31,211 nucleotides of DNA. Source: a virus. Positions 7,673 to 9,792 of this stretch are shown here, piece after piece. Below the pieces are notes generated by a model. The model did no database searches and was not told the DNA's origin. It saw only the letters and a program-made list of their open reading frames with translations. Made by a program: the position numbers and the translations under genes. Location: positions 1 to 31,211 of IMG/VR virus record IMGVR_UViG_3300032116_000897, one strand, 5' to 3'. Position 1 is the stretch's first letter, and each line of letters begins with the position of its first letter.

Positions 7673-7821
7673 TATTTCGCCCTCCGTTCAAAGACCACCG
7701 AGAAGGGGGTCACCTTGAATGAGCGCCAGAATTTCAAGCGCGCCTCGTCCGGCGTGCTGGCGTGGATGTAATCGCCGAAGGGTCCGAAAACTCCGTTCGC
7801 GGTGCAGAGATAAAGATTCAT
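7672..7821 (-). CDS. Hypothetical small protein, 49 aa
   Basis: Reads MNLYLCTANGVFGPFGDYIHASTP and then a basic, aromatic half ending VVFERRAK. It looks like a compact beta/alpha domain of the kind phages use for small regulatory proteins. The start codon overlaps the stop of the HTH gene upstream (TGATG) and the stop overlaps the next start (TAATG). No function can be given. Confidence 0.6.
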   Translation of the reverse strand: MNLYLCTANGVFGPFGDYIHASTPDEARLKFWRSFKVTPFSVVFERRAK

Positions 7822-8027
7822 CAAGCAGCCCTCCTCATCGCCATCGCGGCCGATTTCGCGGTCTTGTTTCCCTTGTTAATGGCGAGGGTCGAAATGACCT
7901 CCTGCACCGATTGGAATCTCCAATCCCGCCCCACCTTGATCGCAGGGATGAGATTTAGGCGGGCATATTTCCGAACGGTAAACGGGGCGAGATTCAGCTC
8001 CGTGGCGAGTTGATCGACGGTGATCAT
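7821..8027 (-). CDS. MerR/excisionase-like HTH protein, 68 aa
   Basis: A short winged-helix DNA-binding domain of the excisionase/helix_turn_helix_17 type: ITVDQLATELNLAPFTVRKY for the HTH, then LNLIPAIKVGRDWRF for the wing, then a basic Ala-rich tail. The best-placed start is the ATG at 8027, with AAAAGGAGGCGGC in front of it and an ATGA overlap with the RHH gene. With an integrase in the same window it is a fair candidate for Xis, but it is equally like early regulators of this fold. Confidence 0.75.
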   Translation of the reverse strand: MITVDQLATELNLAPFTVRKYARLNLIPAIKVGRDWRFQSVQEVISTLAINKGNKTAKSAAMAMRRAA

Positions 8028-8194
8028 GCCGCCTCCTTTTGCTCGAGCTTCTCGATGAGTAGCTGACGAACGAACCCGCTGAGGCTCATGCCGCGTTGAT
8101 AAGCGTGCTTTCTCGCGGCGTTTATCAGTTGTGGAGGGAGCGAGATTCCCGCCGCTTTTGCTTTCCGGTTCTCCGGGACTGGTCTGTTTGCCAT
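8024..8194 (-). CDS. Ribbon-helix-helix repressor, first early gene, 56 aa
   Basis: A CopG/Arc-type RHH protein. The basic N-terminal arm is followed by the strand AAGISLPPQLI, helix A (NAARKHAYQRG) and helix B (SLSGFVRQLLIEKLEQ). It shares the string AGISL-P-LI, the helix spacing and a similar basic arm with the divergent plus-strand gene at 8301, so the two look like paralogues. It heads the leftward early operon. There is no clear Shine-Dalgarno before its ATG, and a promoter-like sequence ends almost at the start codon, so a leaderless message is possible. Its place is that of Cro in a lambda-like switch. Confidence 0.75.
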   Translation of the reverse strand: MANRPVPENRKAKAAGISLPPQLINAARKHAYQRGMSLSGFVRQLLIEKLEQKEAA

Positions 8195-8197
8195 GCG

Positions 8198-8228
8198 CCA
8201 ACAATTAGCAAAAGTTGACGCACTGAAA
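8198..8228 (-). promoter_or_regulatory. Candidate early leftward promoter
   Basis: On the minus strand TTTTCA (about 8223-8228) is followed after 16 bases by an extended -10-like TGC-TAATTG (about 8201-8209). The start site would fall close to the RHH ATG at 8194. The -10 overlaps one arm of the AATTGTTGG repeat, so a repressor bound there could block it. The boxes are weak matches to the sigma-70 consensus. Confidence 0.35.
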
Positions 8229-8236
8229 ATAAAAAA

Positions 8237-8254
8237 ATGGGGTGTTCACCCCAT
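8237..8254. promoter_or_regulatory. 18-bp palindromic operator candidate
   Basis: ATGGGGTG-TT-CACCCCAT is a palindrome with perfect 8-bp arms in the centre of the divergent region. Neither strand has a run of T after it, so it is not a terminator. RHH dimers typically bind symmetric sites like this; which of the two RHH proteins binds is unknown. Confidence 0.55.
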
Positions 8255-8264
8255 AGGTTAAAAA

Positions 8265-8292
8265 TTGACAATTGTTGGAGGCGTGATATTTT
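8265..8292 (+). promoter_or_regulatory. Candidate rightward promoter, leaderless RHH transcript
   Basis: TTGACA at 8265-8270 and TATTTT at 8287-8292, spaced 16 bp, make a good sigma-70-like promoter. Transcription would begin at about 8299-8300, at the ATG at 8301, giving a leaderless message as for lambda cI from pRM. The -35 box abuts the AATTGTTGG repeat at 8270-8278. Confidence 0.5.
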
Positions 8293-8300
8293 CTATTGAC

Positions 8301-8633
8301 ATGAATCCGAAAAAACCGATTTCGCGCAAATCCAAGAGCGCGGGAATCTCGCTGGAGCCTGATCTAATCAAGCGCTCCAAGGATTTCGCGGAAAAGAATG
8401 GATTCGGCAGTTTGTCGAATTGGGTGCGCTTTTTATTGACGCAAGAACTCAGCCGGGCCGCTGGAAATCCGAGCTACAAGCTCGAGGAAGTCAGCAAGCC
8501 AACCGCTAAAAACAACGGTTCAGAAAAGGGAAAAGTCCAGTCGGGTGCTGGTGTTGTGATCAAGCCGGAATCCGAAACTTCCGCTTTTGGTCACTTAACT
8601 CCTACGAAGAAAAACTCCCGAAAGGCTTCGTAG
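8301..8633 (+). CDS. Divergent ribbon-helix-helix regulator, 110 aa
   Basis: After a basic arm (NPKKPISRKSK) comes the RHH unit: strand SAGISLEPDLI, helix A (KRSKDFAEKNGFG) and helix B (SLSNWVRFLLTQELS). It is plainly similar to the minus-strand RHH gene at 8024-8194. The C-terminal 55 residues are polar and look disordered, unlike the short paralogue. I start it at the ATG at 8301; the frame is open to 8265 but that would run into the promoter. Its position opposite the early operon and convergent with integrase suggests the maintenance repressor. The stop codon lies inside a 9-bp inverted repeat. Confidence 0.72.
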   Translation: MNPKKPISRKSKSAGISLEPDLIKRSKDFAEKNGFGSLSNWVRFLLTQELSRAAGNPSYKLEEVSKPTAKNNGSEKGKVQSGAGVVIKPESETSAFGHLTPTKKNSRKAS

Positions 8634-8634
8634 G
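8601..8634 (+). repeat. Inverted repeat at the 3' end of the RHH gene
   Basis: CCTACGAAG (8601-8609) and CTTCGTAGG (8626-8634) form a perfect 9-bp stem around a 16-base loop. The TAG stop (8631-8633) is in the right arm. No T run follows, so it is not a canonical terminator. The loop begins inside a slippery-like GAAAAAC sequence. Confidence 0.55.
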
Positions 8635-8767
8635 GCAGGTCCACGACTTAACGCAAGACCCCGACAACCCCATGCCCGTCATGCGCTGGCCCGAATTACT
8701 CGGGGGGGGGGGGGGGGGTAAATTGTTGGCTTTTACTGCTTTAGACTTGGCCTCCCGCGCCCTCTAA
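8615..8767 (+). other. Possible -1 frame extension of the RHH gene
   Basis: The -1 frame is open from 8510 to the TAA at 8765-8767, whose last bases overlap the stop of the convergent integrase gene. It has no usable ATG before the tail end. From 8615 it reads 50 codons with a protein-like pattern (LPKGFVGQVHDL, then DNPMPVMRWPELL), a six-glycine run from a poly-G tract and KLLAFTALDLASRAL. A -1 slip at GAAAAAC (8609-8615) would fuse it to the RHH protein. It could equally be a frameshifted gene remnant, a sequencing indel or chance. Confidence 0.35.
8702..8718 (+). repeat. Homopolymer of 17 G
   Basis: Seventeen uninterrupted G. It lies between the plus-strand RHH gene and the convergent integrase gene. 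Tracts of this length are unstable by slippage and are poorly read by sequencers, so the true length is uncertain. A change of 1 or 2 bases would alter the frame of the overlying plus-strand extension ORF. Confidence 0.9.
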
Positions 8768-9792
8768 AGCGCCCAAAAAGCCTTTGCCTCTTTTTCCCGC
8801 ACCGCCCGCGCGTAGCGTTCCCGCACCATCTTGGGCGAGGAATGACCTAGATAGTAAGCCGTCTTCCCCGCGTCCTGCCATGCCGCGTAGTGCATCGAGG
8901 CCGCCGTGTGGCGCAGACAATTCTGCGGCCATTCGTCCCACCCCATTTCGAGAGCCAGCGCCGTCCTCGCCCGCTTGATGTGATCCTCATCGAGGCAGTC
9001 CCATTTCTTCGGAAGGTGCCGCTTGAGCGCCGGCAGGATAGGCACGAAGCGCGGCCGAGGATCTGGATCGGTAGACTTGGTTTGGGGGACGAAAATTTCG
9101 ACCGCCTCGATATGCTCCGGCCGCGCCCGCCCCACCTCACTGATTCGCATCCCTCCAAAGACTCCCAGAACCAGCCATGCGCGCATTCGGTCACAATTTG
9201 AAGTGAGGCCGATCAGCCTCTTCACCTGCGGCACCGTCAGCAAATGGTGGACCGGTGCCGCCTGCGGCCTCTCCGCCCGCTGCACCGGCGAGCGGTCCAG
9301 GTGCTCGTATCGAACGAGCCAGTTGAAAAAGAGGCGAAGATAAACGAACCCCTGCTGCCGCGTCGTGCCGCTCCATTCTTTGCGCGCCAGAAACGCATCG
9401 ATGTCCCGAGGCGACACCGCCGCCAGCGGCATCCGCCCCTGAGCCTCGACATAGTGTCCAATCCACCATTGCACCAGCCGCGCATTGCTCCCCCGGAGCT
9501 TCGGCAGCCGGAGCATTTGAAATTCGCGCCACCCCTCCGAGACCGTCTTGCCCGACTCGGCAAAAGAATCCGTCCCTTTCGCCTCAAGCTGCCGCAAAAT
9601 TTGATCCCGGTAAGCCACCGCGCCCGCCGCCTCGTCGAAAAAAGCCCGCTTCCGCTTCCCCGAGATTTTGCTCCACACGCAAAATTTTTCCACCCCCCGG
9701 ACCATCGCCCGCTGAATCGACACGGTGCTTGTGTTGCTCTGCGTTGCTAGTGCTGTTGGCACCGTTGGCACGATGTTGGCTCGTTTAGGCAT
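8764..9792 (-). CDS. int: Tyrosine-recombinase integrase
   Basis: Phage integrase, 342 aa. An N-terminal core-binding (SAM-like) domain spans about residues 80-175, with the catalytic domain after it. Catalytic residues visible: Arg216 (FGGMRISEV), Lys239 (PQTKS), Arg294 (NCLRHTAAS), His316 (YLGHSS) and Tyr327 (RERYA). The position that is usually His in the H-x-x-R box is Asn291 here, a tolerated but less common variant. Its start is 87 bp from the tRNA-Thr fragment, as expected for an integrase beside its attP. It is convergent with the plus-strand RHH gene. Confidence 0.94.
   Translation of the reverse strand: MPKRANIVPTVPTALATQSNTSTVSIQRAMVRGVEKFCVWSKISGKRKRAFFDEAAGAVAYRDQILRQLEAKGTDSFAESGKTVSEGWREFQMLRLPKLRGSNARLVQWWIGHYVEAQGRMPLAAVSPRDIDAFLARKEWSGTTRQQGFVYLRLFFNWLVRYEHLDRSPVQRAERPQAAPVHHLLTVPQVKRLIGLTSNCDRMRAWLVLGVFGGMRISEVGRARPEHIEAVEIFVPQTKSTDPDPRPRFVPILPALKRHLPKKWDCLDEDHIKRARTALALEMGWDEWPQNCLRHTAASMHYAAWQDAGKTAYYLGHSSPKMVRERYARAVREKEAKAFWAL

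Follow-up and report, generated by a model that had tools for sequence, protein, structure and literature searches.

The divergent RHH genes and their surroundings

The DNA analysed here (the window) is a complete virus record of 31,211 bp, which is linear and may be a fragment. Two divergent genes, designated RHH A and RHH B, were found where the preliminary description of this DNA had placed them (8024-8194 on the minus strand and 8301-8633 on the plus strand), with a gap of 106 bp (8195-8300) between them. The features of the locus are as follows.

7821-8027, minus strand: excisionase/HTH_17-like gene, directly downstream of RHH A with a 4-nt overlap
8024-8194, minus strand: RHH A, 56 aa, opening the leftward early operon; putative regulator, Cro-like or lytic-side
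8199-8217, no strand: operator-like dyad O_A at the start of RHH A, with covarying arms CAACTATTGcCAATAGTTG / CAACAATTGcTAATTGTTG
8237-8254, minus strand: GC palindrome and T-run, terminator-like on the minus strand
8259-8277, no strand: operator-like dyad O_B, over the -35 box of P_B
8265-8292, plus strand: P_B (TTGACA-16-TATTTT), a strong promoter
8301-8534, plus strand: zero-frame part of RHH B up to the slip site, 78 aa; putative lysogeny-side repressor
8301-8633, plus strand: unshifted (zero-frame) product of RHH B, 110 aa, with its ATG at 8301
8528-8534, plus strand: slippery heptamer G_GGA_AAA in the zero-frame register
8528-8767, plus strand: -1 frame tail of RHH B (GKSPVGCWCCDQAGIRNFRFWSLNS..LPKGFVGQVHDLT..LLGGGG..), with its stop at 8765-8767
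8702-8718, plus strand: tract of 17 G at the end of the tail
8764-9792, minus strand: tyrosine integrase, convergent with RHH B

Leftward from RHH A, the gene order is putative excisionase, small genes, Sak4-like protein, exonuclease and DnaB-like helicase. The RHH pair sits where the switch of a temperate phage usually lies. A conventional CI-like repressor, which the preliminary description had set against an RHH switch, was not found in S24 form, as the S24 peptidase domain that marks CI/LexA-type proteins had no match in 8 records. HTH_3 gave a single sub-threshold match in 5 of the 8 records, which in the window falls at 637-714, at the distal end of the early operon, and no other repressor candidate was found in the families tested (S24 and HTH_3) in these records. 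An HNH-endonuclease-like ORF, read from the sequence at 1834-2562 on the plus strand, lies opposite to and between the RuvC-like and DnaB genes and is a possible homing endonuclease.

Protein scans of viral contigs recovered the pair in 15 related contigs, in which RHH A is conserved. RHH A and RHH B share 45-47% identity over about 50 residues, in agreement with the likeness described earlier. RHH A matched several RHH/CopG-type Pfam families (E 2e-4 to 0.1) and RHH B gave one weak RHH family match, all below the curated cut-offs. The RHH domain of RHH B covers residues 12-54 approximately. Structure prediction was run for RHH B, and the AlphaFold model, a monomer in which no strand was assigned, contains helices at residues 20-32 and 38-53 (pLDDT about 88) preceded by an extended N-terminal stretch. 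The model is compatible with the strand-helix-helix layout of the MetJ/Arc/CopG superfamily, but a Foldseek search with it returned no significant PDB match. The C-terminal part of the 110-aa product is disordered by prediction. An alternative TTG at 8265 would extend RHH B to 122 aa, and its position falls in the -35 box.

CopG_antitoxin and RelB profiles were among the weak matches at the RHH pair, and RHH folds are common among antitoxins, which would fit an antitoxin-like or partition-type locus. No toxin partner was recognised beside RHH A or RHH B, however, and the two genes are divergent and without a co-transcribed toxin; we consider such a locus very improbable.

The intergenic region and its variation among relatives

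The promoter P_B ends 8 nt upstream of the RHH B ATG, and its spacing was unchanged in 9 of 10 distinct intergenic regions of cassette I, the cassette type of this locus (the tenth, L014, was parsed wrongly). Because P_B ends so close to the start codon, the RHH B mRNA is probably leaderless, which would account for the absence of a Shine-Dalgarno site at RHH B. No matching promoter was found for RHH A; the promoter-like boxes first described on both sides were therefore retained on the side of RHH B but not on that of RHH A.

A 9-bp inverted repeat had also been described between the genes, and is better represented by 14-nt arms at 8198-8211 and 8265-8278 that are 86% complementary. These arms are parts of two 19-bp dyads, O_A and O_B. 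The dyad arms covary among relatives, and O_B is a perfect 9/9 dyad in L004 and L006. A search pattern taken from the relatives and from the searched locus itself matched only O_A and O_B in 31 kb, with 0.03 matches expected. The operators are likely these two dyads, at 8199-8217 and 8259-8277.

The 18-bp palindrome of the preliminary description does exist, at 8237-8254, but was rejected as an operator since it is not conserved among relatives and cassettes; its right half is gone in L004, L014 and several other cassettes. The palindrome and its T-run bear a closer resemblance to a terminator. A scan of positions 7900-8900 against Rfam gave nothing above the gathering score.

Relatives of the locus were collected with a Sak4 alignment scan, which yielded 80 loci; 59 of these and two MAG contigs made up 61 loci with enough upstream DNA. 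An RHH gene on each strand, divergent or nearly so, was found in 57 of the 61. This count includes L133, whose contig ends before the B gene and which was admitted for its known-type A gene; the strict count is 56 of the 60 loci that reach far enough. An A-side RHH gene was present in all 61 loci, and in four of them (L119, L121, L123 and L151) it was a distant one and no B gene was detected. In the related contigs, the pair is usually flanked by a putative excisionase on one side and an integrase on the other. At the Verrucomicrobiota genome loci whose Sak4 is more distant (L174-L189), about 8 kb of upstream DNA contained no convincing pair of RHH genes, and the RHH switch therefore appears limited to the closer family. 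On one 56.8-kb contig, that of L067, two different terminase types were observed (L153 and L154), and this contig is possibly chimeric or composed of two adjacent elements.

Across 56 loci, A types and B types co-occurred in restricted combinations only, and the RHH pair and its operators varied jointly, as a cassette. Other cassettes carried different motifs near both genes, such as GGTGCAC or CGGTGCTAC. When operators were matched over five classes in three data sets (two phage sets and one cross-phage comparison), the pairing of A-side with B-side sites within each class ranked first among 120 permutations. Within cassette I alone the match between A and B operators was weaker, and 16 of 500 shuffles equalled it. 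Matching within the own class would be expected of RHH pairs that each recognise their own operators. Divergent regulators with common operator-like sites at both genes would correspond to a cI/cro-like arrangement. The DNA-binding domains and operators were swapped together, and in several phages the boundary of the exchange was the slip site described below. The intergenic regions of L044, L046, L048, L067 and L078 contained a TTGACATCCGCATGGACACTAGGTTTGCGGGCGAAAAT-like segment that is common to cassettes with differing operators.

Over the whole family, A and B proteins formed separate groups (2 label changes versus 11 in shuffles) in a tree whose few columns give weak support inside. Because of this separate grouping, the split between A and B is probably old. 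A and B of cassette I are strikingly alike. The earlier suggestion that duplication of one RHH gene gave rise to both regulators is thus plausible within this cassette, but family-wide the split looks old.

Reading frame of RHH B

The zero frame of RHH B stops at 8633, and the -1 frame remains open and conserved up to the G tract, for a full -1 product of about 155 aa; the preliminary description had noted neither this tail nor the 17-G tract. A profile of the tail matched behind 51 of 65 B genes, in all 51 in frame -1 and in none in frame 0 or +1. The identical tail type was found behind different RHH domains, each time in -1. An X_XXY_YYZ heptamer in register was present in 29 of the 35 unique B genes, against 2.8 expected (an approximately tenfold excess), in a set of genes that are related and so not independent draws. 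The heptamers were mostly GGGAAAN (GGGAAAA/C/G/T), with AAAAAAA in L116, and by eye L067 carries one too, in addition to the 29. GGGAAA was invariant across 19 aligned genes, which were selected for carrying GGGAAA. Frameshifting has been reported at both G_GGA_AAG and G_GGA_AAC (PMC5009743). Five unique genes in two clades (L093/L110/L126/L130 and L106/L114/L117) lacked a canonical heptamer, and their tail is in -1.

The pattern of substitutions changes at the same place. In cassette I, the variable columns move from zero-frame position 3 to -1-frame position 3 near 8528-8534. Substitutions in the RHH region fell mostly at zero-frame codon position 3 (227/177/611 for positions 1 to 3). In the overlap, the -1 frame gave 384/295/622 and 401 synonymous to 294 nonsynonymous changes, which is coding-like, whereas the zero frame gave 289/618/432, with position 2 the most variable, and 176 to 525, which is not. 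By sequence comparison, the -1 frame is coding.

Two other accounts of the frame change were weighed against this evidence. A sequencing or assembly error, or gene decay, would be favoured by the adjacent poly-G tract, which is an assembly hazard and at which many contigs end exactly. Yet the change was to -1 in 51 of 51 genes, over many contigs and several RHH domain types, and the -1 frame is under purifying selection; we give an error or decay practically no credence. Alternatively, the tail could be encoded by a distinct, overlapping gene that starts independently, with no need of a frameshift. An in-frame TTG was found in 2 of the 35 unique genes, and weak ATC/ATT codons in many, but 33 of 35 have no ATG, GTG or TTG in the stretch that leads from the last -1 stop to the conserved core. 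The enrichment of heptamers in the exact register also argues against a separate gene, which we regard as improbable. Programmed -1 frameshifting is probably how RHH B is read, as judged from these comparisons. The -1 tail, the heptamer enrichment, the switch in substitutions and the lack of an own start together indicate that the 110-aa ORF is probably an unshifted by-product of a frameshifted gene. The 110-aa protein was initially taken as the finished repressor, which is not supported, as the conserved C-terminus lies in the -1 frame.

No downstream stimulatory RNA structure was common to seven single-sequence folds (z -1.7 to +0.85), and a possible pseudoknot was seen by eye. Stimulators of -1 frameshifting are common but not universal (PMC4066793).

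Searches for homologs of the tail in Pfam, PHROGs, NCBIfam and PDB returned none that was convincing, and an AlphaFold model of the tail was of low confidence and was not used. Many tails begin with a Cys-x-Cys motif. Among the 14 of 65 B genes without this tail type (alpha), several have a shorter -1 tail (KRxCxxCPTxLS...KN*; by eye in cassette VI, L017/L030 and L104/L143), and others are truncated or at contig ends. In L004 / L032, RHH B is truncated or damaged and the tail is missing; this phage may have lost lysogeny.

The end of the tail is variable. Relatives have 9-17 G or an interrupted tract, with which the last residues of the tail and its stop change; this may reflect phase variation or an artefact of assembly. 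The tails of L064 (6100-6160) and L065 (1850-1930) have no G tract and end in CCAGCCA-type tandem repeats that differ in copy number, followed by a small lipoprotein-like gene (MKPLLALLALLLAGCAS...).

A candidate RHH switch and known systems

Three MAGs named Verrucomicrobia or Terrimicrobiaceae contained relatives of the Sak4-like protein, and a Victivallis MAG contained one that was more distant. Among isolated phages there was no integrase match, and the RHH B match was weak and at chance level only. The host is probably Verrucomicrobia; the assignment of host and lysogeny is based on MAG binning and on the integrase and excisionase genes.

The preliminary description had proposed a lysis-lysogeny switch made of RHH proteins, with the long one on the repressor side. 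By comparison, the divergent pair at the switch position, the cassette-specific sites and the lack of an S24 repressor in 8 records support the switch. Position suggests, by analogy, that RHH B is the lysogeny side and RHH A the first gene of the lytic operon, but the 110-aa form was not retained as the repressor. We consider it likely that the locus serves as immunity region in a family of temperate phages, in which a divergent RHH pair acts on common dyads and RHH B is frameshifted. The pair could instead provide autoregulatory tuning of the early operon or the excisionase, with lysogeny held otherwise or the phages not truly temperate. This would fit the accessory role of the RHH proteins of P22 (Arc and Mnt), the linear and possibly fragmentary record, and the lack of an integrated copy, since none was found and the two longer MAG relatives are phage-like contigs. 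Such tuning appears rather unlikely given that no other repressor candidate was found in the families tested, that both genes and their operators covary cassette-wise, and that the pair is placed between the excisionase and integrase genes.

In the immunity region as we propose it, RHH A would head the leftward lytic/early operon and RHH B would be transcribed oppositely, probably as a leaderless mRNA. The two proteins probably recognise the same cassette-specific dyads beside each gene start. By analogy with CI/Cro, B would repress the lytic operon in the lysogen, and upon induction B would in turn be repressed by A. Some of the ribosomes would slip one base at GGGAAAN and produce the RHH domain with the conserved tail of about 45-75 residues, and unslipped ribosomes would produce a short RHH B with a disordered end. 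Because the short and long forms have the RHH domain in common, the tail probably adds to or alters oligomerisation, cooperativity or the sensing of and response to a signal; the Cys-x-Cys motif offers a hint only as to this role. More speculatively, and with considerable doubt, the slip rate at GGGAAAN may set the ratio of the two repressors and couple the decision to translation, and the slip site may also serve as the point at which specificities are exchanged onto a constant tail whose end is varied by the G tract or tandem repeats.

In the open-access literature, we found no described phage whose switch is formed by two opposing RHH proteins, or whose repressor acquires its tail through frameshifting. 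If true, the present reading would describe a bacterial-phage switch in which both opposing regulators are RHH proteins, and in which the lysogeny repressor obtains its conserved C-terminus only through ribosomal frameshifting. With standard annotation, the tail would be overlooked and the repressor recorded incorrectly. The naturally occurring cassettes, which are numerous and carry matched operators, would form a ready test set for RHH specificity and the evolution of immunity, in phages of a host phylum for which few temperate phages have been studied so far.

A close comparison is lambda cI/cro, in which divergent repressor genes with common operators lie between the recombination genes and the early operon, operators and DNA-binding domains are exchanged as linked units, and the repressor mRNA is leaderless. 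The locus described here resembles it in its divergent regulators, common operator-like sites, position, linked exchange and probably leaderless repressor mRNA. It differs in that the proteins are RHH and not helix-turn-helix, an S24 autocleavage domain was not found, and the repressor C-terminus would come from the -1 frame. Arc and Mnt of P22 are likewise phage RHH repressors; unlike the pair proposed here, they are accessory immI regulators of ant beside the conventional c2 repressor that P22 also carries.

An RHH protein in a lysogeny-keeping (CI) role, as is putative for RHH B, is known in F55 of the Sulfolobus virus SSV1, which attaches to repeats located at early promoters as well as at the promoter of its own gene (PMC5569661). 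F55 differs in belonging to an archaeal virus and in using tandem repeats, and the available part of the paper describes no partner RHH protein or frameshift (PMC5569661). Frameshift fusion in mobile elements is known from OrfA/OrfAB of the IS3 family, where it joins a DNA-binding regulator ORF to a second domain (PMC5009743), and from FseA of an ICE, where ORFs are fused by +1 frameshifting; these fusions yield a transposase and an excision activator, respectively, and not a lysogeny repressor. In cro of the Lactobacillus phage A2, -1 frameshifting was seen in E. coli, gave a product 12 residues shorter and was reported to be apparently irrelevant in the phage's own host (PMC5009743). Like A2 cro, RHH B would be a switch gene with -1 frameshifting, but here the -1 frame adds a conserved part.
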